Below, piece by piece: positions 5,482 through 38,131 of a stretch of 64,000 nt of DNA. Under the pieces are notes generated by a model, which did not search any database, was not told where the DNA came from, and worked only from the letters and a program-made list of their open reading frames with translations. Source of the stretch: Cornus controversa (Eukaryota > Streptophyta > Magnoliopsida > Cornales > Cornaceae); NCBI GenBank assembly GCA_026545225.1, contig CM048848.1, forward strand, positions 13,248,853-13,312,852, read 5' to 3'. Position 1 is the stretch's first letter, and each line of letters begins with the position of its first letter. The translations under genes were made by a program, and so were the position numbers.

Positions 5482-5812
5482 ATGGGCACCTCATTAAGGC
5501 CCTGTTTGACAGAGCTTTTGTTTCGGCTTTTACACAGAAGAAAAAGAGAAGCAGAAGCTAAATCAGGAAGCTGGTACCCCCAACTTTCTTTAAACGCTCT
5601 TTTTGGACTCCAAAACTCTTCCGCCGTACCAAGTCAAACACTCTCCAAAATGGCTTTTGAGCTTAAAAAGCCGAAAGCCGCTTTTCAAAAGCCAATCCAA
5701 ACAGGGCCTAAGCATACTGAAATTGAGAAGCAATATCTTGAGTAGTAGTAGAGTCTCAGAAAAGGAAAAACAGGAATTTATGTTGCGCAATGGAGGCATG
5801 TTATACATGTAA
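5482..5812 (+). pseudogene. ZRK0: 5' relic of a ZED1-related pseudokinase gene, split by a MITE
   Basis: The relic begins with the same start context as the other copies (ATGGGCACCTCAT). It is interrupted by a 211 bp MITE at 5498-5708, resumes with the conserved N-terminal codons, and reaches the conserved MLRNGGM segment near 5780-5804. There it passes abruptly into sequence that normally lies upstream of a ZRK leader (ACATGTAAATTATTTTGATAG, compare 4590 and 36220). No kinase-fold sequence remains. The join is what unequal crossing-over between neighbouring units would leave, with short homology around ATACATGTAA. No product is expected. Confidence 0.8.
5498..5708. mobile_element. Tourist-like (PIF/Harbinger) MITE
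   Basis: The 211 bp element has terminal inverted repeats GGCCCTGTTTG...CAAACAGGGCC and is flanked by TAA at 5495-5497 and 5709-5711, the three-base target duplication expected for PIF/Harbinger. The body is rich in AGCTTTT/AAAAGC motifs that pair inverted with each other and carries no transposase. The uninterrupted target is visible in sister ZRK copies (TCATCAAGCATACTG), so insertion into the coding start of ZRK0 can be read directly. Confidence 0.9.
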
Positions 5813-6344
5813 ATTATTTTGATAGAACCCTATATATATATTATTTTTCTTTCAAAAGTTTGAATTTCCCCATTCACCTACACGACATGAATTTATATAT
5901 TATTAAATGTTAAATTTTTAATTTTTTTGTTTTTTTGGTAAGCAACTATTTATTATCTCTCTCTTGCATCTTCAAATTCAGAGTCAGAGCAGATAAAAAT
6001 TAGTGACAAATTATCTCAAAATCAGGTTAGGATATATGTATCCAGTTTCTTTCTTATTTATATTATTTCCCTTTGCATTTATATTTAGCTTTCTTAAATC
6101 TGATTGTTGTGAAGTATATAGATATTCACTTGGTTAGTGTTTATGTGTGTGTGCAATTATTTATTTATCCTATAATAAGTAATATATAGTTGGGATACCC
6201 AAATCCTACAGCAATACATGTAAATTATTGATAGGTATTTTCTTTTTTTTGGTTATTGGATAAATTAATTGCTTAATTGTTTTGAAGATGATAGAGAATT
6301 AAGGAAGAGTATGTTTCCTAATTATTAGGGTGCTGTAGTTATAT

Positions 6345-7369
6345 ATGGGCATCTCATCAAGCATACTGAAATTGACAAGTAGAGTCTCAAAAAAGGAAAA
6401 GAAGGAGGAGAGATTGATGTTGCGCAATGGTGGCATGTTATTGGAAGAGCTGCTCCATTCATCTGATGGGAAATATAATTCCTTCCGAATTTTCTCTGCT
6501 AAAGAGATTGCAAATGCAACCAATAACTATGACGAGATGTTTCAGGAGGATTATTGGTTCAAGATGTACAAGGGTTCCTTGAATGGCCGTCAAATATGTG
6601 TCAAGTCTTTTGATAGTACAGGATTTGCTATTAATGAGATTGTGTTTGCATCACAGTTGAACAACCACAACCACATACTCATGCTCTTGGGTTGCTGCCT
6701 TGAAACTGAAGCTCCACTCTCAGTGTACGAGTATGCGGAAAAGGGAGCTCTTTTCGATCATATTTTTAAGTCTTCTACAGCAGAGCATCAGAATCAGCAT
6801 CAACTATTACCTTGGGATTGTAGATTAAAGGTTGCCAAGGAGATTGCTGATGCTTTGGCCTATCTCCACACTGGCTTCTCAATGCCCATCATCCACGGGA
6901 ACGTAACATCAAGCAACATATATTTAAATGGAAATTATGATGCCAAACTATCAGATTTTAGTTTCTCTATATCAATCCCTCCAGGGGAGGAATACGTAGA
7001 AACAGATGAAATACAAGGGACTTGGGGATACGTGGCTCCAGAATACATTCAAACAGGGCAACTAACTGACAAGTGTGATGTTTTCTCCTTTGGATCGCTG
7101 ATGCTTGAAATTTTGTCAGGAGAAAGAATATTCATTTTATTATTTTTGGCATCATCAGTTGGTGGTTCTGAAAAAATGTGCGTCAAGCCTGCATGGAAGC
7201 TGCTGACAAATATATTGGACCGAATAACATGCCTCAAAGTCTAAGGAAACAAGTAACCGCAAGCATAGAACTCGCAATAAAATGCCATAAAGAATCTCCA
7301 GAGGAAAGACCAACCATGAAACAAGCTGCACAAGAGCTTACAAGGATAATAAAAATGGCAGTAAAGTGA
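6345..7369 (+). pseudogene. ZRK1: ZED1-related pseudokinase, frameshifted near the C-terminus
   Basis: Looks like RLCK-XII ZED1-related kinase: a kinase fold without catalysis, which in known members docks on the immune receptor ZAR1 in the cytoplasm or at the plasma membrane. The frame opens with MGISSS, an N-myristoylation-type start, then a Lys/Glu linker and MLRNGGMLLEELL. The glycine loop is degenerate (about 67-75). The beta3 Lys (K87) and a candidate helix-C Glu (E98) remain. The catalytic loop reads HGN (184-186) instead of HRD, and the magnesium site reads DFS (204-206) instead of DFG; APE (231-233) is kept. A one-base loss in the stretch around 7172-7180, relative to ZRK2, shifts the frame. 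The open frame then ends at 7244, while the usual C-terminus (ending IIKMAV) lies in another frame up to 7369. A 299-residue shortened protein is possible. A leader intron is likely at 6026-6328. Confidence 0.8.
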
Positions 7370-7499
7370 AGTGAAGTCACAATCAGATAGATTCCCTCTT
7401 ATATATCGATCTTCCAAATTCCTCCTCAGAATGCATGCATGCATGTCCTTAATGTAATACTTTGGAATTTAGATGTCAATTATTTTAATTTTGAATTGC

Positions 7500-7680
7500 T
7501 TTATATTAATTTTATTATTTCATGTAAATTGCTTTGCCTTTATGATTTTATCATTTTATGTGAATTGCTTGGTCTTTATAGATTATTATTATTTCATGTG
7601 AATTGCTTTGCCTTTATAATTATTATCATTTGTGAATTGTTTGGCCTTTATAGATTCTTTTATTTCATGGATTGTTAATT
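7500..7680. repeat. ~50 bp tandem repeat after ZRK1
   Basis: About four imperfect copies of a unit built on TTTCATGTGAATTGCTTTG with a CCTTTATA tail. The short open frame across it is a by-product. Similar sequence appears inverted at 19190-19430 inside an LTR fragment (AATTCACATAAAATGATAAA), so it may be a scrap of that LTR family. Confidence 0.5.
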
Positions 7681-8083
7681 GCAGTGATTAATTGCAGTGA
7701 TAAATTTGAGGACTTAATTGCAGTAATTAATAATTGAGAGGTTGATGTTGCAACAACTTAATAGTTGAAGAGGTGTTTATTTTATTTTTATTTTTTTGTA
7801 TATCAAAAGTTTAATTTTTTTCATTCACCTTCAAGACGATTGGATACTTCGAAATATCCATAATATAGTATAGTATAATATCCCCAGGGTCAGGTGCAAA
7901 TAACCCTTTATGATATGCAAACTTAAAAGTCTTTAAATTTTACTTTGGGTGTAAACGAGGGCAGACGTTAATTTATAGTTAACAAAGTACTGAAATGACC
8001 AAACTAGCCTTCTGTAATTGAATTAAAAATAAGTAAAAAGCTCAATACATGAAAAATGACAAAAATAAGTAACACCGGTCTGT

Positions 8084-8114
<31 letters not shown>

Positions 8115-8470
8115 GTGCACTGTAGCGATTTTACAGGTTTGATTCTTCATGGCTTTCTTTACCCATGGATGATTGATATTTCGAGAGCTTCTGCTAGCAA
8201 AGATGGTGGCTCCGGCACCGAGGAAGATTGTGCTAGTTGAGGACCCAGCCCCAATTCAATTGCTAACCTTTGATATCCATAAAACCATGTATGAATTTGA
8301 CCCATCAAATGCATACCATTATTATGCACATATTGATTCAACCACCACATCTTAATCATGTGCAATTACTACACAAAAAGAGTTATAACGTGAAAATTTT
8401 CAAGCCAAACTTTACTTCTTCTACCTACCACAAAAAAAAAAGGGAGAAAAAAAAAAGAATATAGAAAAGT
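7681..8470. other. Intergenic DNA between ZRK1 and ZRK2
   Basis: AT-rich, with a TA/CA microsatellite at about 8085-8115. A 60-codon open frame at 8173-8355 (begins MIFRELLLAKM; includes PIQLLTFDIHKTMYEFDPSN) reads more like real protein than its surroundings, but I recognise no family. It is best treated as a possible exon scrap. Confidence 0.35.
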
Positions 8471-8515
8471 CAGACTTTGACTTCCAGTACTCCTCTAGAA
8501 ATGTGAGGGAGAGGG

Positions 8516-8555
<40 letters not shown>

Positions 8556-9188
8556 AGAGAACTCAAGCTCTTTCTTGCATCTTCAAATTCAAAAACTAAG
8601 GATATGATAGCATAAGCTCTTCATCGCATTTGCTATGTGCATGCTTCATCGATTTGCAATAAAATCCAAGGGAAAGATCAGACACAGAACAGATTAAAAT
8701 TAGTGACAAATTATCTCAAAACCTGGTTAGCATGTATCTAGCTTCTTTCTTATTTATTTTATTTCCCTTTCCCTTTGCATTTATTTATATTTAGCTTTCT
8801 TAAATCTGATGGTTGTGAAGTATATAGATATTCTTTTGGTTAGTGTTTATGTTTATGTGCAATTATTTATTTATCCTATAATAACTAATATATAGTTGGG
8901 ATACCCAAATCCTACAGCAATACATATAAATGATTGATAGGTATTTTCTTCTTTTGGTTATTGGAAAAATTATTAGACAGTATATATATTATTTTTAATT
9001 TCTATATAAATATATTAGTTGATTTAGGAAAATATTATTAGGTTTACAAAAATTTAGTGAATTGGTTAGGATATGTTTTTCATTAATTAATTAATTTTTT
9101 TTTGGTTAGGAAACCCTAAATTAATTGCTTGCTTTGAAGATGATAATTAAGGAAGAGTATGTTTCCTAATTATTAGGGTGCGGTAGTT
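8470..9188 (+). promoter_or_regulatory. Leader region of ZRK2 with GA tract and putative 5'UTR intron
   Basis: This block is conserved in front of ZRK0, ZRK2 and ZRK4, and partly ZRK1. It has a (GA)n tract at about 8519-8553, a short exon-like stretch with CTTGCATCTTCAAATTC, and a probable leader intron 8726-9176 (donor G/GTTAG, acceptor ATTATTAG). The start codon lies twelve bases beyond the acceptor. (GA)n tracts in plant 5' leaders are often regulatory; here that is inference. ZRK3 lacks this whole region. Confidence 0.5.
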
Positions 9189-10256
9189 ATGGGCATCTCA
9201 TCAAGCATACAGAAATTTAGTAGTAGAGTCTCAAAAAAGGAAAAGGAAATGGAAAAGGAAAAGGAAAAGGAGAAGGAGAGATTGATGTTGCGCAATGGTG
9301 GCATGTTATTGGAAGAGCTGCTCCATTCATGTGATGGGAAATATAATCCCTTCCGAATTTTCTCTGCTAAAGAGATTGCAAATGCAACCAATAACTATGA
9401 CGAGCTGTTACAGGAAGATTATTGGTTCAAGATGTACAAGGGTTCCTTGAATGGCCGTCAAATATGTGTCAAGTCTTTTAATAGCTTTCTTACACTTGCT
9501 ATTAATGAGATTGTGTTTGCATCACAGTTGAACAACCACAACCACATACTCATGCTCTTGGGTTGCTGCCTTGAAACTGAAGCTCCAGTCCTAGTGTACG
9601 AGTATGCAGAAAACGGAGCTCTTTCCAATCATATCATCACCAGTTATTATCAGCAGCAGGTATTATCTTGGGATTGTAGATTAAAGGTTGCCAAGGAGAT
9701 TGCTGATGCTTTGGCCTATCTCCACACTGGCTTCTCAATGCCCATCATCCACGGGAACCTAGATCCCAAAAACATATATTTAAATGGAAATTATGATGCC
9801 AAACTATCAGATTTTAGTTTCTCTATATCAATCCCTCCAGGGGAGGAATACGTAGAATCAAAAGCACTAGGGACTATGGAATACATGGATCCAATATTCG
9901 CTTTTACAGGGCAACTAACTGACAAGTGTGATGTTTACTCCTTTGGATCGCTGATGCTTGAAATTTTGTCAGGACAAACAATATCCACTTTATTTACTGG
10001 GTACCAGAATTCATGTAAAGAATATCGTTTGGCAACATCAGATGGTGGTTATGAAAAATATAAGCGTCAAGCCTGCATGGAAGCTGCTGACAAATATATT
10101 GGACCCAATAACATGCCTCAAAGTCTAAGGAAGCAAGTAGCCGCAAGCACAGAACTCGCACTAAAATGCCATAATAAGTATTCTCGAGAGGAAAGGCCAA
10201 CCATGAAAGAAGCTGCACAAGAGCTTACAAGGATAATAAAAATGGCAGTGAACTGA
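9189..10256 (+). CDS. ZRK2: ZED1-related pseudokinase, the one copy that looks whole
   Basis: A 355-residue single-exon frame resembling RLCK-XII ZRK adaptors. MGISSS at the start fits an N-myristoylation site (Gly2, Ser6). A Lys/Glu-rich repeat follows at 16-31, longer than in the sister copies. MLRNGGMLLEELL (33-45) and FSAKEIANATNNY (58-70) lead into the kinase fold. The nucleotide loop lacks the GxGxxG glycines (75-85). Beta3 Lys is K95 and the probable helix-C Glu is E107. The catalytic loop is HGN (188-190) with N195 kept, the metal site is DFS (208-210), and the APE position reads DPI (234-236). D248 (CDVYSFG) and R336 (EERPTM) are kept. Without the HRD Asp and with an altered DFG it should not phosphorylate; binding and scaffolding are the likely role. 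Known ZRKs pair with ZAR1 to sense modified RLCK-VII kinases or effectors. The start is supported by equal spacing in ZRK1. Confidence 0.88.
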   Translation: MGISSSIQKFSSRVSKKEKEMEKEKEKEKERLMLRNGGMLLEELLHSCDGKYNPFRIFSAKEIANATNNYDELLQEDYWFKMYKGSLNGRQICVKSFNSFLTLAINEIVFASQLNNHNHILMLLGCCLETEAPVLVYEYAENGALSNHIITSYYQQQVLSWDCRLKVAKEIADALAYLHTGFSMPIIHGNLDPKNIYLNGNYDAKLSDFSFSISIPPGEEYVESKALGTMEYMDPIFAFTGQLTDKCDVYSFGSLMLEILSGQTISTLFTGYQNSCKEYRLATSDGGYEKYKRQACMEAADKYIGPNNMPQSLRKQVAASTELALKCHNKYSREERPTMKEAAQELTRIIKMAVN

Positions 10257-11480
10257 AGTCACAAACAGATAGATTCCCTCTTATATATCTTCCAAACTCC
10301 TCCTCAGAATGCATGCATGCAGATCCTTAATGTCCCACCGGTTTGCCCTTATTCCTCAACTCTTCGAAAATATCCATATGCAATATTATTGGTTTAATCT
10401 TGTGCCAACTCATGGTTGATCATGTCTTTAGCAATCTTATTGGTTTACTGTATTAAATATATATACATACATATTGGCTGACTGTATCATCTTACTGGAT
10501 GTGTTGAGAGTTATCCGAAAATTTAATTAAAAGTGCTTCTGTATTGAACTTATTTCTATAGGTAGTGATCGAGGAACTCTTTAGAGTACTTGACATGCTT
10601 TATATTGGAAAGCATGTCATCAACACAACAATCAAATACAAAATGAGAATGGTGACTGAGGTAACATCAGATGTACCCAATATCAAAGGAAAAGAAAAAC
10701 CTTCTGGAGAAGTAGATGGTAATTATGTTGCCAAATGATCAGATTTTAGAAGAACAACTACACAAACACATCAAGTTGCTATACATGTAAATTATTTTTA
10801 ATAAAACCAGATTCCAGATTTTCTTTTTTCTAAAGTTTGAATTTCCGCCTTCACCTACAGGACATGACTTACATTTGACAATAGAAAAAACATATATATT
10901 AAGAAAGATCTATCTGAACTTTAAAAAAAAAAATTACAAGTGAAAAACAGATTATACAACACCAGCATCAAAGTCCAACTGCTCACGCCTTACAAGAACA
11001 CCTTCTTCCTAAATCTCAAGGCACCTATCATCAGGGAATTCATATGAGAAAATTGATCATTTAACAAGAACTGGATGCTAGTTGCAGTTAGTGTAAGAAT
11101 TCAGAAAAACAGAGAGAAAAACAGAGAGCAGAAAAGTTTATGTGAGATGTTCAGAGACGCAGGAAGTGGTAACTTTTAACAGCAAAAGCATAAGCATTGA
11201 ACGGCATGGAAGTTTTTTTAAATCTATAGTTCTAAAGGTAATAGACTCCAAAATCGCAATGGCATGGATAAAAATTAGTCAAGAGAAAAAAAGAAAAAAA
11301 CTTTAGGGTCTTCAAACCATACTAAAATCTAAAAAAAAACTGAAGTGTCTTCAAACCATACTAAATCTATTGTTTGCTTTTTTGCCAAATATAAACAACC
11401 AAAAGCTGAGAAGACTGTAAAAACTAAAAACAAAACTGCACTTAGCAATTAGAAATTAAAAAAAAAAAAAGAAACACAAC
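10257..11480. other. 3' flank of ZRK2, shared with ZRK3 and ZRK4
   Basis: This flank is collinear with 24003-25260 after ZRK3, and its first ~400 bp with 38132-38525 after ZRK4. It holds a poly-A-like tract near 10921-10932. At about 10711-10749 there is a decayed ZRK scrap, recognisable as a relic of the GNYDAKLSDF segment. No other gene is seen. Confidence 0.6.
10711..10749 (+). pseudogene. Short ZRK relic (DFS-region scrap)
   Basis: The bases read as a damaged form of the NGNYDAKLSDF segment found in every ZRK body, with an in-frame stop. The same scrap recurs at 24493-24529 after ZRK3, so it predates the duplication of the units. Confidence 0.5.
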
Positions 11481-11991: not shown

Positions 11992-14453
11992 TTACACATT
12001 CATTCTGTCAATGACCACCCATAAATTGGTATCCACATCATCTGTCACTCTAATGGGGATAAAGTGAGCTACCTTCGTCAATCTGTCAACGACCACCCAA
12101 ACTGCGTCGTGACCCTTCCTCGACCTTGGAAGCCCCGTCACAAAATCCATAGTGACATGCTCCCATTTCCACATAGCCACAGGCAATGGCTGCAACAACC
12201 CCGCTGGTCTCTGATGCTCGCCACAAACTGAGCTACATCCTTTTTCATACCCTTCCACCAATACTGTCGGCGTAGGTTATGATACATCTTGGTACCACCT
12301 GGATGTACTGCTAGCCTCGAGTTGTGAAACTCTCTCAGAATCTCATCCCGACAAGCTGAGGGAACAAACATCTTCCCTTGGAATTTTATGCTCTCATCTG
12401 AATGAACTGTCCATCCTTCCACCACTTCACCACCCGAAATTCGTGTGCGAACAGTCTCAGCCTCACTATCCTTCCTTTGCTCTTCAATCACTCTACTCAC
12501 AAGAGTTAGTTGAGCAATAAGAGTAAATAACACCGCCGGTCCATCATCTTCACTGAAATGCAATCCCATTTCTGAGATATCTTCCATCATCTTCCACTCC
12601 CGTATGGCTAAGCTTGCTAAGCTACCATGTGACTTCCTACTCAACGCATCCGCCACTACATTGGCCTTTCTCGGATGATATTGCAAGTCGAAGTCATAAT
12701 CTTTCATGTATTCCATCCACCTCCGTTGCCTCATATTCAAATCCTTTTGTGAGAAAAGGTATTTGAGACTTTTGTGATCCGAGAATACCTCAAACTTCTC
12801 GCCATACAAATAATGTCTCCACACCTTAAGTGCAAAGATCACCGCTGCCAACTCCAAGTCGTGTACCGGATAATTTTGTTCGTGCGTCTTCAACTGCCTT
12901 GAACCATACGCCACTACTTGTTCGGTTTGCATTAGCACACATCCCAAACCAAGTCGTGAAGCGTCACAATAAATTGTATACCCCAACCCACGTTCTGGGA
13001 TGATCAAAATTGGAGCCGAAGTCAGCCGGCCCTTCAATTCCATGAATGCACGCTCGCAAGCATCATCCCACACAAATTTCACTACTTTTCGGGTAAGCTT
13101 TGTCATTGGTGCTGCTAACCACGAAAAGTCCTTCACAAACCTCCGATAATACCCGGCCAATCCCAAGAAACTACGTATCTCAAATACGCTCTTAGGTCTT
13201 TCCCAACTCATCACCGCTTCTATCTTGGATGGATCTACGGAAACCCCTCCTTTGGACACAACATGCCCAAGGAATTTCACTTCCGCTAGCCAAAATTCAC
13301 ATTTCTCATATTTGGCATATAATTGATGTTCTCTTAAGAGTTGCAACACAATCCTCAAATGACCCTCGTGCTCCTCTTCCAAAGATGAGTACACTAGGAT
13401 GTCATCAACAAACACAACCACAAACTCGTCCAAGTAAGCATTGAACACCCTATGCATTAGATCCATGAATGCCGCCGGTGCATTTGTCAAACCAAATGGC
13501 ATTACCAAAAACTCATAGTGTCCATATCGTGTGCGAAAGGCAGTCTTTGGAATGTCCGCCTCTCTAATCCCCAACTGATAATAGCCCGATCTCAGGTCTA
13601 TCTTTGAGAAACACCTCGAACCCTTAAGTTGATCGAACAAGTCATCTATCCTTGGCAAGGGATACTTATTTTTAATCGTTGCCCGATTCAACTTCCTATA
13701 GTCAATGCAAAGCCGCAAAGACCCGTCCTTCTTCTTAGCAAAAAGAACTGGAGCTCCCCAAGGCGATGTACTAGGACGTACAAATCCCTTGTCTAGTAGC
13801 TCTTGTAATTGGTCCTTCAACTCTTTCAACTCAGCCGGTGCCATTCGGTACGGTGCCATAGAAATGGGCGCAGTACCTGGAGCAAGATCTATCACAAACT
13901 CCACTTCTCGTTTCGGAGGCAACTGTGTCAATTCCCCCGGAAATACGTCCATAAACTCACACACTACACGAGGAAGCTCTCCAAGTGTCTCATCCTCACC
14001 ATCAACAAGTAGGCTCATCAAGAAATACCCAAGCCCTTTTCGATCACTAGAACCAAGTGGAGACGACAAGTAGAAGTCATCCCGCTCTCCCACAAAGCAA
14101 ATTCTAACACCTTCCGGCGTATGCAAGGTCACTCTTCCCCTGTAACAATCAATGTTGGCTCTATAGGTCGATAGCCAATCCATACCCAAGATCACATCAA
14201 AACTAGACATCTTAAGAAGGATGAAATCGAACACCAATCGATGTCCTGAAATCTCGATCTCGCAAGATCGGCACACATCACTCAAAACCACTCTACCACC
14301 AACTGGCGTATCAATGGATAAAACTGAGTCCAAAGATGACACCTCCAACCCCAAAGCACAAGCAAATGCATATGATATGAATGAATGTGATGCACCTAAA
14401 TCTACTAAAACCCTAGCCCATGAGCTAGATACAAGAAATATACCTCGGACCAC
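11992..14453 (-). mobile_element. pol region of the Ty3 element
   Basis: Domains in order on the minus strand: aspartic protease ([11 protein letters not shown]), reverse transcriptase with [10 protein letters not shown], RNase H (core [15 protein letters not shown]), the HHCC zinc domain ([20 protein letters not shown]) and the first part of the integrase core ([20 protein letters not shown]). No chromodomain is visible. Fossil, incomplete. Confidence 0.88.
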
Positions 14454-14516
14454 TGACGGCCCTGCTGAGGTCTCTCTTGGAGCAAGAGTAAAGACACAGC
14501 CCGGGGTCCTCTGGCC

Positions 14517-15689
14517 CTACTGTCCTGTACCCTGATATGTAGACTGAAGACTAGGAGCGCTAGATGCGGCTCCTCTAGCAGGTGCCCGTGAACTCTGAAC
14601 TGAAGGCACAGTCTGTGGTAGTGGCAATGCCCTAAAGCCTGACTGTGAAGTCGCAGGCTGCGCAGGACGCTGTTGTGAGCCAACGCCACTCTGTGTACCC
14701 CTCTTCTGTGGGCAATTCCAACTAATGTGCCCCATCTGTTGACAGTGGAAACACTTTTTGTCCGTCACAGGAGTATTATGCTTTTGAGTGCATTCTGCCG
14801 CTTTGTGTCCCAGTTTCTGGCAATTATAGCAAATTACCTTAGGTCGTGTGGTCCCAGTAGGCACAGCCACTGATGGTGTAGATTGGGTTTGTTGTTGCCC
14901 TTGGGAGAACGACCCACCATCCTTTCTCTTCCTTCCTGTACGGTTGTCTGAAAGAGACCCCACGTTTCTCATTTGGTTCCTTGCTTCCCTCTTCTTCCGA
15001 TTATCAATATCAAGTTCCTCAGCCACTAGTGCCCTCTCCACTACCACTGCATAACTAGTCAGCCCCAAGACTGCCACCTTATCTCTTATGAATGTCCGAA
15101 GACCCCTTATGAACTGTTTTATCTTTAGCTCCTCCGTTGGTATTATCTCTCTAGCAAAACGAGCCAAGGAAGTGAATTTGGTCTCGTATTCCATCACCGT
15201 CATTGAGTCTTGTGTCAACTCATAAAATTCCCTTCTTAGATTGTCTTTCACTGTCACTGGAAAGTACTTCTCAAAGAAGAGTACTTGAAACATGTCCCAA
15301 TCCATCGTCTCGATGTCATGGTAGTTTTCGGTGAATTTTCACCAACGACTGGCATCATCTATTAGATAGTGAGTGGCCACCTTCACCCTCAAGTCTTCAT
15401 CTATTTCAAGCACAGTAAGGAGCTTGACAATCTCATCCAACCAGTTTTCTGCCACTATGGGATCGGATCCCCCTGAATAGGTTGGCGGATTGTACTTCTT
15501 GATATGCCCTAATGCCGTTATCATTCGGCTAGGAGGAGCTGCCCTTGGTGGAGCTTGTGTCTCCTCCTGGGTTTCCCTTTGAGTTTCCCTTGCAATTTGC
15601 CGCATGGCAGTGACCATGTCACGCATAAATTGTCCTCCATCTGTGGGAGCTACTGGTGGCACTTCCCCACGAGCTCTACGTGGTGGCAT
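14517..15689 (-). mobile_element. gag region of the Ty3 element
   Basis: Starts MPPRRARGEVPP, carries the retroelement gag core (YSGGSDPIVAENWLDEI and the segment near 15305-15170), then two CCHC zinc knuckles (CYNCQKLGHKAAEC and CFHCQQMGHISWNC) before a Ser/Pro/Gln-rich tail. This is typical of plant Ty3 chromoviruses. Fossil, not whole. Confidence 0.85.
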
Positions 15690-15995
15690 CCTTCTGCATA
15701 GATGACAAGAAGATACCTAAAAATTCAAAGCATGTATGCCATGTCCAATTCACTTCATGCATACACAACATACTTATATACTTCATAAGTAGCATATCAT
15801 ATCAAACAAACAAGCACATAAAATTTTCTATGTAATATGCATTTAACCTTAGCTTACACTCAAAACCTCAAATCTAGGATCAGAACCTAAATTTCAAAAT
15901 CCCATGCATCATCAATCTCCTTCAATCCAACACGTGGCTTAACCATTTCCCGTCGTCCGTAGGTATTCAAACCCGGTTAAGCTCTGATACCATTT

Positions 15996-19438: not shown

Positions 19439-22400
19439 TGAAATACCCCTCCAAAATTTCGCGCATGAGGTGGCCAGTCTCATACACAAAACCTGGAAGA
19501 TACATACAACTGGTAGCAACAAGCATAGAATACAAAAGATATAATGAATAATTTTCTAATTGCAGAAAAGAAAGTTCCTCTGAATTAAAAATAACTGTTA
19601 ACTAAACAAGTATATGTCCGGTAATATAATTTGGAAGTCCTGTAACCCAAGGACCCCTTAACCAGAATGAACCAAAGTTTTTAATTCTAAAATTAATACC
19701 AACAATCAAAGTCTCAAAAGGTCATAGTATGACTCTTGAAGAAGACAAGTTCCTACCCTGTGATGAGACGTCTGCTACAACCAAACCCTAAAACTCTATC
19801 CTCGCGGTGGAACTTGTCTGAAACCTGAAATATCAACAAAGTGGGTTAAACCCACGAGCAAGTTCTATCTACTACATCCCAATCAGAGAACCAATATACA
19901 TACCCTCAGTATAAGGGACATAAAATAAGTCTATAGATTTAACCTACAAGTTATTCTTTTACCCAGTTTCGTGTTTCCAAAACAACAGTCAATATTTATA
20001 ATATTCCACCCAAACCCTTATTATGCAAACGTGAACACGTTCCTTACGTTCAGCAGAAATAAACATAATATAAAATAATATCAAGTTTAAGCAATCCTAA
20101 CATGCCATCATTAAATCTTTTGATACCTTAATAGGTATAGATATATACATACTAGTCATTTCCTATTTAGATCATGTTTTCAGAAGTAAAATCATCTTAT
20201 ACATTGTTCCAACACACCCTTATCATCCAACAATGAACACATTCTTTAAGTTCAAAATAAAGAAAACATGTGCATACACATATAGATACCTTATTAGATA
20301 TGGGCGATCCTGACACGCCAAATAAAATGTATAGATACTTTATTAGGTATGGGCGATCCTAACACGCCAAATAAAATGTATAGATACCTTATTAGGTATG
20401 GGCGATCCTGACACGCCGGGCAATCCTGACATGCCAAATAAAATGCATAGATACCTTATTAGGTATGGGCGATCCTGACACGCCGGGCAATCCTTACATG
20501 CCAAATAAAATACATAGATACCTTATTAGGTATAGGCAATCCTGACACGCCGGGCAATCCTTACATGCCAAAATAAAATGCATAGATACATTCCAATATG
20601 CAATATAAAATAACAAGGTGCATTATGATTTAAATTTGCACAAACGTTATTTCAAATCATCCAACATGAAATTATCATCATAAGACAAATCGTTCACAAG
20701 TAGACTATAATCAAGTATCCCATGTGCATTTATATATATAATAAACACAATCGATTAAATCAAAATAATTTAACATCCATTAGAGGAAACAATTCCCCAA
20801 ACCAACCTCCAATGCACTCAAATCTCCGAGGGGATCTAAACTTACTCTTATCTAGGTTTCTGGGCCTATTTCACTTCTAAGAACACTAAGAAAATATTCT
20901 AAAATTTTTTGTAATTTAAAAATATTTTTAATAAACCAAAGAAGGTGAAAATCCAACTTTTAGGCACTTTAAAAATTAATTTAATACTAAGGGAAGCTCA
21001 ATTCAAGGTGAAAATTTAAACCCAAGGTCATTTAATCTCTAAACAGTTACAGAAAAATTTTGGAAAATTTGGGAATTTCAGAAGTATTTTCTAAAATTAC
21101 AGAAAGTGAAAAATCCAACTTTTAGACACTTTAAAAATCAATTGAGCAGCAAGGAAAGATTATTTTGAGTTGAAAATTTAAACCCAAGTGTATTTATCCT
21201 CCAGAGAATTACAGTAAAAATTTGGGAATTTTTGGAATTATAAAAGTATTTTTCTAAAATTACAGAAAGTGAAAAATCCAACTTTTAGACACTTTAAAAA
21301 TCAATTGAATAGCAAGGAAAGATTATTTTGAGTTGAAACTTTAAAACCAAGTGTATTTAGCCTCTATAGAGCTACATTAAAAATTTTGGAAATTTTGAAA
21401 ATTTCTAACTATTTTCTAAAATTAAAGAGGCTGAAAAATCCAGTTTTTAGACACTTTAAAAATTAATTTAAAGACAATGGTAAAACATTTTGCTATGAAA
21501 TTTAAACTCCAAGCCCCTTAAGCTCCCATCAAGTTGTCATAAAATTTTTGGAATTTTTAGAATTATAAAAGTATTTTTAAAAAATGATTTTTCCAGATTT
21601 TCAAGTTTTCCCAAAAGTTTCAAAAATACAAAATAAATATCAAAACAATTCGGAATGGGCCCATATTGGGCCCAGAGGCGGGCCCCCGAGAGTGGGCCCC
21701 AAAAATAATTTTCCGGCCACCGGCGCCGGCGGCACGCGCCCCCACGAACCGGCGAACGCGTGGCCCCTTTTCCTTTTCTTTTGTTTTTTTCTTTTCTTTC
21801 TTCTTCCTTCTTCCTCGGCTGAAGCTCCAGCGGCCAACAATGGAGGCCGAGCTTCCCGATCACTTTCCGATCACTTCCGAGCACCGAATCGCGCATATGA
21901 ATATACCATTGAACTCGTATCGATCTAAGCTACGTATTGGTACCAAAATTATCCCCTCTCGCGGACTAAATCAAAAACGCCCAATTTCAAGTTTCAAAAA
22001 TCTAAAATTTTAAACTCAATTTCCCGTCAATCTACCCAACGGTTCATAACAAAACTTTCAAGGATTGTTCTAGGAAGTAAGATCTACCTTTTAATCGGAA
22101 CAAAATCCCTCAAAAATGATAAACACAGTAGACCCAAATTTCATGTTCGTATATATATACACCCGCCTATACAATCATATATACATGTATATACATATGC
22201 AAAAATATTCTAAAACAGTACCAAAACTCCAAAATCCTAATGTTTAATCCACAGAATTATTCTTAGCATGCAAAATCATAAATTTCATAATTAAATGCAT
22301 ACAAATTTCTAGCAACATATCTATACAATTAGCATAATTAATTCTCACAAAATTTATCAACAGAAAAAAAAAAAATTATATACAAATTTCCAAAATAAAC

Positions 22401-22933
22401 ACAATCCTCAAACCTAGACTATGCATACGGATTCAAAGGGGAAGAGAAGAATCAAACTTGCCTTTTTTCTGACGAATTAACTTGTTCACCCGATCGTCAC
22501 TCCCTTCTCTCTTTCGTTTACTCGCTCTTAGTTCTGTGCGTAAAACAACGGCAACCCTAATTTCTTCTTCTTTTCTTTTCCTTTTTGTCTTAATTATTCT
22601 TTTATTGATTTTCCTAAAACTAATTAAAATCAAATTAATAATACTAACAATAGCAATAAAATATTATTTCAACCCTAGGCCCATCATTTTAAACATAACC
22701 TTAGCCCACTCATACTAGCCCAAATTCCTCCCTAGCCCAACCCAAAACATTTAAATAAAATAACACACAATTAATACCAATTCACATAAAATGATAAAAT
22801 GCATGTATAAAAGACAAGCAACTCACCTACAATGATAATTTATATATAAAAAAAAACATTTCACATGAATTAATAAAATAAAGTAATAATATAAAGAGAT
22901 TAAATTGACACCTAAATTTTCCGGGGTATTACA
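19439..22933 (-). mobile_element. Solo LTR (TGTAATACC family), nested in a copy of its own family
   Basis: Plus-orientation ends are TGAAATACCCC and GGGGTATTACA, the inverse of TGTAATACCCC...TTTCA. Flanks are TGCCA (19434-19438) and TGCCG (22934-22938), a target duplication with one difference. Length is about 3.5 kb, with no internal region. It shares order and sequence with 39371-42561 (opposite orientation) and 54513-58005. Open frames in its GC-rich part (21537-22013) are by-products. Confidence 0.82.
20285..20595. repeat. LTR-internal minisatellite
   Basis: Five to six units of about 50 or 67 bp built on TAGATACCTTATTAGGTAT and GGCGATCCTGACACGCC. The same array is in the other two solo LTRs (55380-55830, and inverted at 41340-41900), with different copy numbers. 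TACCTTATTAGGTA is itself an imperfect palindrome. Confidence 0.85.
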
Positions 22934-22960: not shown

Positions 22961-23000
22961 AGTACATTGATGTATTTCTTTTTTCTATAAATAAAAGCGG
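22961..23000 (+). promoter_or_regulatory. TATA-box segment placed directly before ZRK3
   Basis: These 40 bases match 1387-1426 with a single difference and include the TATA box CTATAAATA (22985-22993). On the left they abut the end of an LTR (GGGGTATTACA, 22950-22960). On the right they abut ZRK coding sequence (AAAAAGGAAAAGG from 23001). The normal ZRK leader, intron and first codons are absent. Confidence 0.6.
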
Positions 23001-23021
23001 AAAAAGGAAAAGGAGAGATTG

Positions 23022-24002
23022 ATGTTGCGCAATGGTGGCATGTTATTGGAAGAGCTGCTCCATTCATCTCATGGGCAATATAATCCCTTCCGAATTTTCT
23101 CAGCTAAAGAGATTGCAAATGCAACCAATAACTATCACGAGCAGGTTATGGACGATGGTTTGTCGCAGATGTACAAGGGTTCCTTCAATTGCCGTCATAT
23201 ATGTGTCGAGTCTTTTAATAGCGAGTATGGAATGGATGCAATAGGATATGCTATTAATGAGATTGTGTTTGCATCACAGTTGAACAACCACAACCACATA
23301 CTCTTGTTTTTGGGCTGCTGCCTTGAAACTGAAGCTCCACTCCTAGTGTACGAGTATGCAAAAAACGGAGCTTTTTCCAATCATATCATCATCAGTTATT
23401 ATCAGCAGCAGGTATTACCTTGGGATTGTAGATTTGAGGTTGCCAAGGAGATTGCTGATGCTTTGGCCTATCTCCACATTGGGTTCTCTATGCCCATCAT
23501 CCACGAGAACCTAAAAAGGAAAAACATATTTTTAAATGGAAATTATGATGCCAAACTATCAGATTTTAGTTTCTCTATATCAATCCCTCTAGGGGAGGAA
23601 TACGTAGAAACAGATGACATACTAGGGACTACGGGATACCTGGCTCCAGAATACTTTCAAACAGGCCAAGTAACTGACAAGTGTGATGTTTTCTCCTTTA
23701 GATCGCTGATGCTTGAAATTTTGTCAGGAGAAACAATATTCACTTTATTGTACAATCATTCATGTGAAGAATCTAGTTTGGCATCATCAGTTGGTGGTTC
23801 TGAAAAATATATGCATCAAGCCTGCGTGAAAGCTGCTAAAAAATATACTGGACCGAATAACATGACTGAAAGTCTAAGGAAGCAAGTAACGGCAAGCACA
23901 GAACTCGCACTAAAATGCTGTAAAATTTCTCCAGAGGAAAGGCCAACCATGAAAGAAGCTGCACAAGAGCTTAGAAGGATAATACAAATGGCAGTGAACT
24001 GA
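23022..24002 (+). CDS. ZRK3: N-terminally shortened ZED1-related pseudokinase
   Basis: An open frame of 326 residues from the ATG of MLRNGGMLLEELL to the usual C-terminus. Compared with ZRK2 it lacks the MGISSS start and the Lys/Glu linker, so no myristoylation signal is expected. It is more degenerate as a kinase: beta3 Lys is replaced by Glu (E63, HICVESF), the catalytic loop reads HEN instead of HRD, and the metal site reads DFS. APE is kept (YLAPEY), and the conserved Gly of subdomain IX reads Arg (FSFRSLM). It should not bind ATP in the normal way. A TATA box lies about 30 bases before the ATG, so a normal-distance transcript would have almost no leader; expression from here is uncertain. 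The open frame through the whole kinase fold argues that it is either recent or still used. Confidence 0.8.
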   Translation: MLRNGGMLLEELLHSSHGQYNPFRIFSAKEIANATNNYHEQVMDDGLSQMYKGSFNCRHICVESFNSEYGMDAIGYAINEIVFASQLNNHNHILLFLGCCLETEAPLLVYEYAKNGAFSNHIIISYYQQQVLPWDCRFEVAKEIADALAYLHIGFSMPIIHENLKRKNIFLNGNYDAKLSDFSFSISIPLGEEYVETDDILGTTGYLAPEYFQTGQVTDKCDVFSFRSLMLEILSGETIFTLLYNHSCEESSLASSVGGSEKYMHQACVKAAKKYTGPNNMTESLRKQVTASTELALKCCKISPEERPTMKEAAQELRRIIQMAVN

Positions 24003-25297
24003 AGTGAAGTGAAGTCACAAACAGATAGATTCCCTCTTATATATCTTCCAAATTCCTCCTCAGAATGCATGCATGCAGGTCCTTAATGTCCCCACAGGTT
24101 TGGCCTTATTCAACAACTCTTCAAAAATATCCATATACAATATTATTGGTTTAATCTGTGCCATCTCATGGTTGACCATGACTTTAGCAATCTTATTGAT
24201 TTTCTGTATTAAATATATATACATACATATTAGCTGACTATATCATCTTACTGGATGTGTTGAGTTATCCGAAAATTTAATTAAAAGTGCTTCGGTATTG
24301 AACTTATTTCTATGGATAGCGAGGAACTCTTTAGAGTACTTGACATGCTTTATATTGAAAAGCATGTCATCAACCCAACAAACAAATCAAGTTAGTGAGA
24401 AGTGTGATGTTTACTCTTTTGGATAGCTATTGATTGCAATTTTGTAAGGAGAAAGAATCCTCTCTATGTAATGGGGGGAACGATCATATTTTAGATGGAA
24501 ATTATGTTTCCAAATGATCAGATTTTAGAAGAAATAAGAAGAACTATACAAACACATGAAGTTGCTATAGGTGTAAAATATTTTGATAAAACCAGATTTT
24601 CTTTTTCAAAACTTCGAATTTCCTCATTCACCTGCAGGACATGACTTACATTTGACAATAGATAAACATATATGTTAAGAAAGATGTGTTTGAACTTTAA
24701 AAAAAAAAAAAATTACAAGTGAAAAAAGGATTATACAACACGAACATTAAAGTCCAACTGCTCACACCTTACAAACACCTTCATCTCAAATCTCAACACA
24801 CCTATCATCATGGAACTCATATGAGCAAATTGATCATTATTTAATAAGATCGAACTAGATACTAGTAGCAGGTAGTGTAAGAATTCAGAAAAATAGAGAG
24901 CAGAAAAGTTTATGTGAAAAGTCGAGAGACGCAGGAAGTGAAAACTATTAACGGCAAAAGCATGAGCATTGAACGACATGGAAGTTTTTAAATCCATAGT
25001 TCTAAAGGTAAAATAGACTCCAAAATCGCAATGGCATGGATAAAAATTTGTCGAGAGAAAAAAAGAAAAAACTTTAAGTGTCTTCAAACCATACTAAAAT
25101 CTAAAAAGAACCGAAGTGTCTTCAAACCATACTAAAATCTGTTGTTTGCTTTAATTTTTCTAAATATAAACAAGCAAAAGTTTAGAAGACAATAAAAACT
25201 AAAAACAAAACTACATTTAGCAATTAGAAATTAAAAAAAAAACACATAACATTAAAATTATAAAGGATTATGTCATTGAGGTTTTCCATTACAAAAT
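24003..25297. other. 3' flank of ZRK3
   Basis: Collinear with the ZRK2 3' flank (10257-11520), including the poly-A-like tract near 24700. Contains scrambled ZRK scraps at 24388-24529. No gene seen. Confidence 0.6.
24388..24529 (+). pseudogene. Scrambled ZRK scraps
   Basis: Bases 24388-24462 read as a damaged copy of the subdomain IX segment (form: KCDVYSFG, then a GERI-like end). Bases 24493-24529 read as a damaged GNYDAKLSDF segment. Their order is the reverse of that in a kinase, so this is a rearranged relic and not a gene. Confidence 0.55.
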
Positions 25298-33096: not shown

Positions 33097-33131
<35 letters not shown>

Positions 33132-33272
33132 TATTATTCATATATTAGCATATGATTAAAATTAATCATAAATTTCATACAATTGGTACACATTAACTAA
33201 TTATATATATAATAAAAATATATATGTTTATATATATATATGTAATATGTGTTAAAATATTACCCTTTATAA
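32664..33272. mobile_element. Non-autonomous DNA transposon-like insertion
   Basis: Present in copy B and absent at the same site in copy A (3229-3236, where ATATTTTATAGAC is uninterrupted). Ends resemble short inverted repeats (GGTAAATTAC and ATATTACCC) flanked by TTTATAAA on both sides, an 8-9 base duplication as for hAT or Mutator-like MITEs. Interior is AT-rich with no transposase. Confidence 0.55.
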
Positions 33273-33550
33273 AATTAAAAATCCTAAAGTATGCCCCCCA
33301 ATGAGCAAATAAGCAAATAACCCCTGAACAAAAAAGTAAATAGAAAATATCTGAACTATTAAGTTTTATTTCAAATTGCCCATTGCACAGTCCATCGATA
33401 TGCCATTTGAATTTTGATGTGAAACGCTTTCATGCCGATCAGGCGACACACCATTTTTAATTAAATAATCAGAATGCCCTTATAAATGTTAAAAGACCAC
33501 AATGGCCCTATTAACCTAATTTTCCAAACCTATATATATATAGATAGATA

Positions 33551-33587
<37 letters not shown>

Positions 33588-33742
33588 GTCGTGTGTATAT
33601 ATATTTACAATTGATTTTGAATTTGAGCTTTACAATTTGAAATTAAATTTGTGATAAAAGATTCAAGATTTCCCTTAATACCTCCGATACAATGATTTGA
33701 TAACTCCTTCATGTGTTCTCATGCACCAGAATCAAGAAACAA

Positions 33743-34295
33743 GAACAATCTTAGACTCATTTGCTTGAGAGTCTTCCACTTGGCTCTCTGTATGAAAGAC
33801 ATCTGTAGCAAATTTCCAAATGTAACTACTCTCATCTCATGCTCTATCACTTCAATTCTCATCAAAATTTTACCTTACTAATCAAATTCACACACACACA
33901 CATATATATGTGTGTGTATATGTATCGATGTATGATGTGGTCGAACAATCTCAGACTCATTTGCTTTAGAGTCTTCCACTTGGCTCTCTCTATGAAAGAC
34001 AACTGTAGCAAATTTTCAAATGTAACCACTCTCATCTCATGCTTTATCGCTTCAATTCTCTTCAAAATTTTACTTTACTAATCAAATTCACACACACAAA
34101 CACACACACACACATACACATATATATATGTATAGGTACCGATGTATGATGTGGTCGAACAATCTCAGACTCATTTGGTTGAGAGTCTTCCACTTGGCTC
34201 TCTGTATGAAAATAACAAATTTCCAAATGTAACCACTCTTATCTCATGCTCTATCACTTCAATTCTCTTCAAAATTTTACTTTACTTATCAAATT

Positions 34296-34338
<43 letters not shown>

Positions 34339-34708
34339 GTATGTATAGGTACCGATGTATGATGTGGTCGAACAATCTCAGACTCATTTGGTTGAGAGTC
34401 TTCCACTTGGCTCTCTGTATGAAAAACATCTGTAACAAATTTTCAGATGTAACCACTCTTAACTCATGCTCTATCACTTCAATTCTCTTCAAAATTTTAC
34501 TTTACTTATCAAATTCACACACACACACATATATAGTATATGTATTTATGTATGATGTGGTCGAACAATCTCAGACTCATTTGCTTGAGAGTCTTCCACT
34601 TGGCTCTCTGTATGAAAGACATCTGTAGCAAATTTCCAAATGTAACCAATCTCATCTCATGCTCTATCACTTCAATTCTCTCCAAAATTTTACTTTACTA
34701 ATCAAATT

Positions 34709-34743
<35 letters not shown>

Positions 34744-35124
34744 GTATATGTACCGATGTATGATGTGGTCGAACAATCTCAGACTCATTTGCTTGAGAGT
34801 CTTCCACATGGCTCTCTGTAAGAAAGACATCTGTAGCAAATTTTCAAATGTAACCACTCTTATCTCATGCTCTATCACTTCAATTCTCTTCAAGATTTGC
34901 TTTACTAATCAAATTCACACACACACACACACATATATATATATGTATATGTATATGTATCAAGGTATGATGTGGTCGAACAATCTCAGACTCATTTGCT
35001 TGAGAGTCTTCCACTTGACTCTCTATATGAAAGACATCTGTAGCAAATTTCCAAATGTAACCACTCTCATGTCATGCTCTATCACTTCAATTCTCTTCAA
35101 AATTTTACTTAATTTACTAATCAA

Positions 35125-35190
<66 letters not shown>

Positions 35191-35211
35191 GTATCGATGT
35201 ATGATGTGGTC
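33743..35211 (+). repeat. ~210 bp minisatellite, seven units
   Basis: Units start at 33743, 33943, 34157, 34370, 34563, 34771 and 34978 (193-234 bp each). Each has a conserved ~150 bp part beginning GAACAATCTCAGACTCATTT and a variable (CA)n(TA)n tail ending ATGTATGATGTGGTC. Copy A has one unit (3530-3714). Most length variation is in the microsatellite tail. Open frames through the units (for example 34742-35215) repeat the same peptide and are judged non-coding. Confidence 0.92.
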
Positions 35212-35696
35212 ATAGGGTTCTGTTTCAGACAGATCGAGATTGTAGTTACCGAAGGCGATCAAGAGGGAGGCAAGATTATTGCGATTGGGGCTTTGCACTG
35301 GGTTGAGGAATATTGTCCAATTAGGGTTTTACAAAGAGAGAGAGAAAGAGCGAGTGCACAGGGTTTTAGATTGTGGTGCGATAAGTTTAGAGAAAGAGAG
35401 AGAGAATGGGGTTCGTTTGGCTTGTGGCGCGAATGAAAACCAGATGGATTATTTGCAAATTGGACATACTTCAGGATATTTTTTTTTTTTCAGTTAACTC
35501 TATTTTATAAAGAAATGTTAATAACAATATATATATAACATAAAATTAATTTTTTTATATATAAAAATATTATTTATTATTTTTATATTATCATATTCCA
35601 CCGTACTCATATTCTAATTTTTTTTTTTTTAATTTGAGATTTGGTCTCCCATGTGCATGCTTTCAAGGACAATAACTCCCTTGATTTACTGGTATC

Positions 35697-35975
35697 TTTT
35701 GTTGGATTCAAATTGTTTACTATTTTTCATGTTCACCTTCAAGTCTTTACAAAAAATCAAATTGTTCATGTACAGATGGAACTAGTTCCGTCTGTACATG
35801 AACAATTTGAATCCAACAAAAGCTCTTTAGTGATCTCACTTTATAGAGCTTTTATAAAGTGAGATTAAAAATCAAATTGTTGGTCCATATAAAAGCTCTT
35901 TTATAGAGCTTTTATAAAGTCTAGACTCTATAAAAGCTCTACAAAATAAAAAGTGAGATCACTAAAGAGTCTAAG
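35697..35975. repeat. Complex foldback (nested inverted repeats)
   Basis: A 54-base palindrome at 35757-35810 has one mismatch and is centred on ACTAGT. The 21 bases at 35697-35717 are the exact inverse of 35801-35821. Bases 35823-35842 are the exact inverse of a 20-base stretch near 35950-35970 (AAAGTGAGATCACTAAAGAG). Copies of AAAGCTCT/AGAGCTTT fill the middle. Copy A has only the simple, single form (about 4240-4350). Confidence 0.88.
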
Positions 35976-36656
35976 TTCAAATAATCTATATCTCATTACA
36001 CTAACAAACATTGTTAGTTCATGAATGAGTTCAATAAAACTCACGCATGAGACACATTTATTATAATTTGTTTGGGTTAATAACTAATTTTTCTGTTTAT
36101 CAATCTTGATTTGAAAAGTGTGTTCAAGTTTTTACTCAAGAATGAGGTCAATTTGAGCCCATTTAAATTATTTTGATAGAATGGTGAAGAACAACTATAC
36201 AAACATATGAAGTTGCTATACAAGTGAATTATTTTGATAGAATCCCTTTATTTTTTCTTTCAAAAGTTTGAATTTATATATTATTAAATGTTTAATTTTT
36301 AAATTTTTGTTTTTTTTGGTAAGCAACTATTTATTATATTATTTTGAAAAAATTTAAGTTTGTGTCCGATAAATTCACCTACCACAAAAAAGGACCTACA
36401 TAGTGGAAATTTCCATGCCAACTTTAGTTATTCTACCTACCAGAAAAGGAAGACTTTGACTTCAAGTCTTCCTCTAGAAAAGATTGGGAAAGGGAGGGAG
36501 AGAGAGAGAACTCAAGCTCTCTCTTGCATCTTCAAATTCAGAAAGTAGTGATCTCATAGCCTAAGCTCCTTACAGCTTATGGATTTGTAATAAATTCCAA
36601 GGCAAAGATCAGAGTCAGAGCAGATAAAAATTAGTGACAAGATATCCCAAAATCAG

Positions 36657-37081
36657 GTTAGGATGTATCTAGCTTCTTTCCTATTTATTTTATATCCCTT
36701 TGTATTTATATTTAGCTTTCTTAAATCTGATTGTGGTGGAGTATATAGATATTCTTTTGGTTAGTGTTTATGCGTATGTGCAATTATTTATTTATCCTAT
36801 AATAACTAATACGTAGTTGGGATACCCAAATCCTACAGCAATACATGTAAATTATTGATAGGTATTTTCTTTTTTTGGTTATTGGAAAAATTATTAGACA
36901 GTGGATATATTATTTTTTCTATATAAATATATAAGTTGGTTTAGGAAAATATTATTAATTAGGTTTACAAAAAACTTTAATGAATTAAGTCTTTTTCATT
37001 ATTATTATTTATTTATTTGGATAAATTAATTGCTTGCTTCGAAGATGATAACTAAGGAAGAGTATGTTTCCTAATTATTAG
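36657..37081 (+). other. Putative 5'UTR intron of ZRK4
   Basis: Donor TCAG/GTTAGG and acceptor ATTATTAG/G occur at the same positions as in the ZRK0-ZRK2 leaders, with a GA-rich leader just upstream (about 36480-36520). Confidence 0.4.
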
Positions 37082-37093
37082 GGTGCGGTACTT

Positions 37094-38131
37094 TTGGGCA
37101 TCTCATCAAGCATACTGAAATTGACAAGTAGAGTCTCAAAAAGGGAAAAGGCAAGAGAATACGCGAGGGAGATGAACATGTTGCGCAATGGTGGCATGTT
37201 ATTGGAAGAGCTGCTCCATTCATCTGATGGGAAATATAATCCCTTCCGAATTTTCTCTGCTAAAGAGATTGCAAATGCAACCAATAACTATGACGAGACG
37301 TTTCAGGAGGATTATTGGTTCAAGATGTACAAGGGTTCCTTGAATGGCCGTCAAATATGTGTCAAGTCTTTTAATAGCTTTCATACACTTGATGTAATAG
37401 GATATGCTATTAATGAGATTGTGTTTGCATCACAGTTGAACAACCACAAGCACATACTTGTGCTCTTGGGCTGCTGCCTTGAAACTGAGTTTCCAATCCC
37501 AGTGTACGAGTATGCAGAAAACGGAGTTCTTTCCTATCATATTTTTAAGTTAGAGTCTAACAATCATCATCAGCAGCAGCAGTAGCTATTACCATGGGAT
37601 TGTAGATTAAAGGTTGCCAAGGAGATTGCTGATGCTTTGGCCTATCTCCACACTGGGTTGTCAATGTCCATCATCCACAGGAACGTACAAAGGAGAACCA
37701 TATATTTAAATGGAAATTATGATGCCAAACTATCAGATTTTAGTACGTCTATATCAATCCCTCCAGGGGAGGAATACGTAGAAACAGATGAAATACGAGG
37801 GACTTTAATAGCTCCAGAACACTTTGCAACAAGGCAACTAACTGAGAAGTGTGATGTTCACTCCTTTGGAGCGCTGATGCTTGAAATTTTGTCAGGACAA
37901 AGAATATTCACTTTATTAGTTCGTGGTTCTGAAAAATATATTCATCAAGCCTGCATGAAAGCTGCTGAAAAATATATTGGACCGAATAACATGCCTGAAA
38001 GTCTAAGGAAGCAACTAAGCGCAAGCACAGAACTCGCACTAAAATGCAATAAAGATTCTCCAGAGGAAAGGCCAACCATGAAAGAAGCTGCACAGGAGCT
38101 TACAAGGATAATAAAAATGGCAGTGAAGTGA
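37094..38131 (+). pseudogene. ZRK4: ZED1-related pseudokinase, start lost and in-frame stop
   Basis: Full-length body collinear with ZRK2. The start codon equivalent reads TTG (37094-37096, TTGGGCATCTCATCAAGC); the next in-frame ATG is at 37172, which would remove the MGISSS segment. A TAG at 37583-37585 follows a CAG run and cuts the frame before the catalytic loop; the same frame continues to the usual C-terminus at 38131. Other features: beta3 Lys kept (ICVKSF), catalytic loop HRN, metal site DFS, activation segment shortened (GTLIAPEHF). A protein of about 137 residues from the inner ATG is possible but would lack the C-lobe. Likely a pseudogene. Confidence 0.85.

Follow-up and report, generated by a model that had tools for sequence, protein, structure and literature searches.

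The 64,000-nucleotide stretch of the Cornus controversa genome analysed here (the window; contig CM048848.1 of assembly GCA_026545225.1, C4:13248853-13312852 in a genome of 771.7 Mb) carries five bodies of one pseudokinase gene, ZRK0 to ZRK4. It is probably part of a cluster of ZED1-related kinase (ZRK) genes that encode pseudokinase adaptors for ZAR1, a nucleotide-binding leucine-rich repeat receptor (NLR) of which this plant has a single one. An earlier note on this DNA had read the five bodies as copies in different states of decay, and the reading frames together with direct reading of the sequence bore this out, with a sixth fragment added (Table 1). Birth and death of copies extends across ~277 kb, well beyond the window, and an intact ZAR1 gene is present in the genome, in keeping with the candidate birth-and-death cluster of immune adaptors that had been proposed. 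A single genome shows here one conserved immune receptor together with a large and fast-turning set of pseudokinase adaptors.

Family membership and the ZAR1 receptor

By sequence the window copies belong to the ZRK (RLCK-XII-2, ZED1-related kinase) family. Among proteins of solved structure, the best match of ZRK2 was Arabidopsis RKS1/ZRK1 as a chain of the ZAR1 resistosome (212 bits, E 1.1e-61), followed by SYMRK with 118 bits, and the alignment to RKS1 covered residues 22 to 349, including the stretch NGG..LLEELL..GK.NPFRIFS. A search of the genome with RKS1 gave 123 matches, of which the top 21 all belonged to the family of ZRK2 (36-44% identity), ZRK2 itself being the second match with 210.6 bits, and the first kinase resembling wall-associated kinases (WAKs) stood at rank 22 with 33% identity. 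In a maximum-likelihood tree of 34 proteins, a split with 100/100 support placed RKS1 together with the 16 family rows, apart from the 17 other receptor-like kinases; 18 such kinase loci were fetched and 17 used, L061 being omitted as a truncated near-duplicate of L059. The open reading frame (ORF) of ZRK2 starts with MGISSS and leads directly into the kinase domain, so that, as read from the ORF without a transmembrane predictor, the protein would be cytoplasmic with no extracellular or transmembrane part.

The earlier note had named two outcomes that would speak against a ZED1-related identity or an immune role, namely best matches to another kinase family such as the WAKs and the lack of a ZAR1 orthologue in the species. 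RKS1 was the best match instead, and the search with Arabidopsis ZAR1 (identical to PDB 6j5t_G over 852 residues) found one clear orthologue at C2:15857542-15860085, with 62% identity over residues 1-847 of 852 and 1165.8 bits. It is a single open frame of 859 residues with the N terminus MVDAVVTVFLEKLL, in which motifs that we take to be the P-loop and the MHD-type motif are readable. The next of the 55 matches reached 293 bits and 30% identity, and the remaining NLRs listed were 24-34% identical.

Organization and turnover of the cluster

ZRK0 to ZRK4, located by stop-to-stop frames, a repeat search and direct reading of the sequence, all lie on the + strand at the places claimed earlier. 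The likeness among the bodies is not due to chance, because ZRK1, ZRK3 and ZRK4 share 72-75% protein identity with ZRK2 over their main stretches and the best Pfam kinase match for each of five pieces searched had an E value between 1e-30 and 3e-5. The whole cluster occupies C4:13.228-13.505 Mb and holds 14 bodies, ZRK0 included. Three frames are whole, those of ZRK2 (355 aa), 13373224 (372 residues) and 13504401 (350 residues); frame, start or large parts are gone in 8 of the 14, and three more are truncated or deleted yet open. One of the cluster bodies, 13403035 (C4:13403035-13403928), has lost the activation segment through a 198-bp in-frame deletion and is open from its ATG for ~299 residues, and another, C4:13228781, is interrupted by a TG..CA element of 2.95 kb that is flanked by a 5-bp target duplication (TTATG) and belongs to the same family as the long terminal repeat (LTR)-like sequence adjoining ZRK3.

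Within the window, ZRK0 ends abruptly, giving way to sequence that resembles the upstream regions of other copies, and its 211-bp insert is by its features what we take to be a Tourist/PIF-Harbinger-like miniature inverted-repeat transposable element. In ZRK3, which is open from 22995, about the first 25 codons have been replaced by retroelement-derived DNA, and the first usable ATG, at 23022, corresponds to Met33 of ZRK2. A conserved leader stands just 5' of the ATG at 8700-9180 and at the equivalent places before ZRK1 and ZRK4; judged by eye alone, it contains what resembles an intron of the 5' untranslated region (CAG/GTTAG.. to ..TTATTAG/G).

The segment from ZRK3 to beyond ZRK4 is collinear and ~97% identical with a second segment of the same cluster (377 mismatches in two long blocks). 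The ZRK4 twin has the same TAG and an intact ATG, and the ZRK3 twin has the same 5' loss but, at the positions of Glu, HEN and SFR in ZRK3, still has the beta-3 lysine, HGN and SFG. The stop of ZRK4 and the truncation of ZRK3 predate the segmental duplication, as they are common to both twins, whereas, with the state common in other copies taken as ancestral, the start loss of ZRK4 and the K-to-E and HGN-to-HEN changes of ZRK3 postdate it, as the twins keep the common state. The claim that the breaks are recent therefore holds only in part; the layers give an order of events inside one adaptor cluster.

Genome-wide there are at least 37 ZRK-type loci, broken ones included, a locus being counted where its main match to ZRK2 had at least 52% identity. 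Fifteen lie at C4:13.02-13.51 Mb and 17 at C4:15.08-15.19 Mb, with single loci at C4:10.38, C4:14.95 and C4:15.03 Mb, C8:17.36 Mb and C9:7.62 Mb. Three copies at C4:15096647, 15149848 and 15178547 have equal score and identity to ZRK2 and would thus be duplicates of very recent origin or a repeat in the assembly.

Loss of the catalytic motifs

The motifs are as the earlier note had given them, with HGN in ZRK1 and ZRK2 (the catalytic loop of ZRK1 reads HGNVTSSN), HEN in ZRK3, HRN in ZRK4 and DFS in all four. The glycine-rich loop (G-loop) is lost in all four copies that keep the region and is unrecognisable in 16 of 16 family rows, and ZRK3 has also lost the beta-3 lysine (ICVES). The Ser of DFS, present in 13 of the 16 rows, is common with RKS1, which has DLS, and this much of the claim that catalysis was lost long ago holds. 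The Asp of HRD persists in RKS1 and in four of the 16 family rows (C4:14949, 15160, 15084 and 15165), with Asn in 11 and Ser in one, and its loss is therefore younger or repeated. ZED1 likewise has Asn (N173) at this position, as reported in a portion of PMC6634424.

Selection on the cluster

Among 12 bodies of the cluster, 27 of the 32 distinct gap intervals were multiples of three (binomial P 3.8e-9, a value that treats overlapping gaps as independent), and the frame was therefore preserved over most of the history of the cluster. Of the five other gaps, two are frameshifts (ZRK1 and 13384), two fall at the stop codon and one reflects an insertion in row 13376, itself excluded. The count does not cover every break, as the N-terminal gaps of ZRK3, 13408, 13395 and 13384 (those before alignment column 200) are omitted, and the element inserted in 13228 was removed beforehand.

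For the codon tests, models M1a and M2a were compared with our own script, after removal of the first 31 codons and masking of any codon up to 2 positions from a gap; the 13376 relic was left out of all codon and gap work and the deleted stretch of 13403 was treated as missing data. Over 12 bodies and 254 codons the likelihood-ratio test statistic (LRT) was 70.7 and 13% of codons fell in a class with omega 6; 16 data sets simulated without positive selection gave an LRT of at most 4.78. The signal was recovered with the two halves of the gene on their own trees (19.1 and 42.0), a split that was the only handling of gene conversion, with the five (25.6) and seven (45.5) less broken rows, with the three whole copies alone (23.8) and with eleven open-frame family rows (52.2 over 281 codons). 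WAK-like controls of 11 and 4 kinases gave an LRT of 0, omega values of 0.17 and 0.22 and no positively selected class. A site list for the subfamily at 15 Mb (five rows, LRT 16.3) was discarded, the fit being degenerate with a neutral class of zero and ~70 sites flagged. The pairwise dN/dS (the ratio of replacement to silent rates) between ZRK2 and the whole copy 13504401 was 2.64 (46.2 replacement, 4.8 silent), an estimate that is not gap-masked and in which multiply hit codons blur the silent and replacement counts, so the model tests were relied on instead. The twin pairs had replacement to silent counts of 18 to 7 for ZRK3 (0.67) and 3 to 0 for ZRK4, both being small numbers.

The cluster sites with a naive empirical Bayes posterior of at least 0.8 were 48, 73, 75, 76, 78, 81, 191-194, 211, 237-239, 250, 266, 318 and 331. 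Of the high-posterior sites in the kinase domain, 13 of 17 fell in the G-loop, the catalytic loop or the activation/P+1 segment, which make up 40 of the 229 codons kept (P 3e-8); this wider definition of the cleft was drawn after the sites were seen, and a narrower one of 32 codons held 8 of 17 (P 6e-4). From the site list of the whole copies, five of six lay in the wider cleft (P 7e-4) and two of six in the narrower one (P 0.2). Diversifying selection appears to be focused on the cleft, which these results support but do not prove.

A possible adaptor mechanism

Several features of the ZED1 and RKS1 interfaces are in print. The excerpted text of PMC6634424 places N173, T177 and V212 of ZED1 at its interface with PBL kinases and describes activation-loop residues of uridylylated PBL2 as occupying the cleft of RKS1, and that of PMC8813719 states that the RKS1 residues required for PBL2 lack conservation among the other ZRKs and that the residues contacting the leucine-rich repeats (LRR) are likely conserved. 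ZED1 T177 aligns with M195 of RKS1 and with residue 194 of ZRK2 (posterior 0.87), whose neighbours 192 and 193 vary strongly.

Binding to ZAR1, docking of PBL kinases and sensing of effectors are roles that we infer for the window copies by analogy, and we take the whole copies to be ZAR1 adaptors, in which the dead cleft may determine the modified kinase or effector that is detected. ZRK2 or another whole member would sit on the ZAR1 LRR, as suggested by the work on ZED1 and RKS1, and would itself phosphorylate nothing. Upon modification by an effector, PBL-type kinases, or effectors themselves, would dock at the dead cleft formed by the degenerate G-loop, catalytic loop and activation segment, and this docking would trigger the ZAR1 resistosome. 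Tandem and segmental duplication would supply new copies, which would diversify at the cleft and be lost through frameshift, stop, start loss or transposon insertion. A further proposal, which we advance tentatively and consider possible rather than probable, is that the dead ATP cleft has become a hypervariable recognition surface in which diversifying selection varies the G-loop, the three residues that follow HRD and the P+1 segment in the manner of an antigen-binding loop, with ZAR1 remaining single, and that dead copies carried along in segmental duplications could donate cleft variants. The sites point out candidate adaptor residues that may carry specificity, and this opens to direct test how many effectors can be perceived by a single NLR.

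Alternative explanations

Several results weigh against the reading of an adaptor cluster, on the side of identity as well as on that of selection. Below rank 21 of the RKS1 search the ZRK and WAK-like matches are interleaved, and RKS1 is the sole outside ZRK in the tree, where it stands on a long branch (1.6). That the copies are degenerate WAK-like receptor kinases without their outer domain is nevertheless barely credible. The WAK-like kinases of this genome have a common kinase ancestry with the ZRKs and carry the NGG..LL juxtamembrane motif too, the best of them are 33-43% identical to ZRK2, and the GUB_WAK_bind domain is found in the genome (150 matches listed of 205 candidates); however, RKS1 groups with the window copies and not with the WAKs both in the tree and in the genome search, the alignment of ZRK2 to RKS1 passes through the juxtamembrane stretch, and none of the 150 listed of the 205 GUB_WAK_bind candidates lies near the ZRK loci at C4:13.0-13.5 and 15.0-15.2 Mb. 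The other receptor-like kinases are unlike the window copies: none of the 17 has lost HRD or DFG, 11 of them have one of the listed GUB_WAK_bind matches 1.1-2.8 kb upstream, and the controls have a low omega. A WAK identity was rejected on the ectodomain, within the same listed matches, and on the catalytic motifs, where the copies have HGN, HEN or HRN and DFS instead. The large clusters of WAK-like receptor kinases, some of which served as controls, are at C10:34.0-34.5, C5:9-10.6, C5:44 and C5:56 Mb. As for the 22-kb duplicate with its twin broken copies, it is improbable that it is an assembly artefact, an unmerged haplotype, with no real duplication behind it. The two segments are collinear at an identity of 97%, which falls within the range of allelic divergence of an outcrossing plant, and upstream of the ZRK3 twin the sequence is also related to the window (89% to the region downstream of ZRK2), but both segments are on a single contig, at a distance of 137 kb, the likeness falls to ~84-90% upstream of them, and their flanks differ, ZRK2 standing beside one and the internally deleted 13403 body beside the other.

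On the side of selection, only one of the five bodies in the window (ZRK2) is whole, and only three of the six sites above 0.9 in the wider family lie in the cleft (73, 230 and 238; the others are 103, 152 and 266). The counterpart of ZED1 V212, T229 of ZRK2, is a nearly invariant Thr in the family. Given its own rate, the cleft had an omega of 1.94 against 1 with a marginal LRT of 3.91, and the narrower cleft 1.62 with an LRT of 1.65; outside the cleft omega was ~0.99, so that even the whole copies show little sign of purifying selection. The cleft sites were moreover mapped by alignment alone, an AlphaFold2 model of ZRK2 with the window copies as its alignment having reached a pLDDT (predicted local distance difference test score) of 39.6 and being unused. 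It is conceivable, though we regard it as unlikely, that the whole cluster is dying, with the three whole frames as chance survivors and the variation of the cleft as relaxed constraint or as old divergence spread by gene conversion. The omega near 1 outside the cleft and the marginal partition test would fit this, as would the number of broken, truncated or deleted bodies, and path-counted synonymous differences were also higher in the cleft in four of four pairs examined. Among codons for the same amino acid, however, synonymous differences were not raised in the cleft (5/201 against 45/1333, seven pairs summed), the counted gaps mostly keep the frame, only two of the other five being frameshifts inside the compared coding rows, and M2a holds for each half of the gene on its own tree as well as for the three whole copies. 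We retain the reading of a cluster that turns over and probably supplies adaptors for ZAR1.

Comparison with known systems

The cluster fits the known ZRK pattern, with an instructive history. Like Arabidopsis RKS1/ZRK1 and the ZED1/ZRK cluster, it consists of clustered genes for apparently cytoplasmic pseudokinases with an unrecognisable G-loop, and it has the N-terminal motif NG..L.EL..C.GK..P.R.FS of the Arabidopsis ZRKs. ZRK2 differs from RKS1 in being just 42% identical, and positions +2 to +4 of the catalytic loop are highly variable here. Clusters of NLR genes also evolve by birth and death, with tandem and segmental copies, a diversified recognition surface and many pseudogenes, as in the window cluster; unlike in those, it is the adaptor that multiplies here, and the receptor ZAR1 is single and conserved. 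ZRK clusters have been described before (PMC6634424, in part), as has variation in ZRK family size across plants, and the loci counted here, at least 37 with broken ones included, outnumber the 13 ZRKs given for Arabidopsis in the available part of PMC9539561. Strong positive selection in ZRK13/14 is likewise in print, their orthogroups being among the 20 receptor-like kinase orthogroups with the most positively selected sites per base in Arabidopsis, where, unlike here, selection was seen across accessions of one species (the portion of PMC12382012 consulted, which shows no mapping of the sites onto the cleft).

Features of the window

Table 1. Coordinates of the ZRK bodies, mobile elements and duplicated segment in the window
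Feature	Position	Strand	Description
ZRK0	5482..5800	+	5' coding relic: ATG 5482, first residues, then MLRNGGML region
Inverted-repeat insert in ZRK0	5498..5708		211 bp, ends GGCCCTGTTTG, target duplication TAA
ZRK1	6345..7369	+	ATG 6345; one base lost near 7175, leading to stop 7242-7244
ZRK2	9189..10256	+	Whole single-exon ORF, 355 aa, MGISSS start, degenerate G-loop, HGN, DFS
Ty3-type retrotransposon	12138..15716	-	gag + pol (truncated within integrase); lies between ZRK2 and ZRK3
LTR-like sequence	19439..22933	-	Adjoins ZRK3
Duplicated segment	22775..44939		From ZRK3 to beyond ZRK4; copy at C4:13408656-13431000 or further
ZRK3	22995..24002	+	5' end and upstream replaced by LTR-derived DNA; beta-3 Lys to Glu; HEN
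Sixth ZRK kinase-domain fragment	24388..24475	+	~90 bp, 79% to ZRK2, in-frame stop
ZRK4	37094..38131	+	Start is TTG at 37094; TAG 37583-37585; otherwise open to 38131; HRN

Beyond these, a 231-residue open frame on the - strand at 62889-63584 had no Pfam match at E 0.001, and a fragment on the same strand at 50333-50785, presumably copia-type, has a Pfam match to Pol_BBD. Three tandem repeats of ~2.33 kb, 90-98% alike, occupy 44102-49500 and contain only short frames of ~100 aa or less. Tandem repeats of 67 and ~163 bp occur in two places of the window, at 55581-56608 and at 20334-21516, the latter inside the LTR-like sequence adjoining ZRK3.

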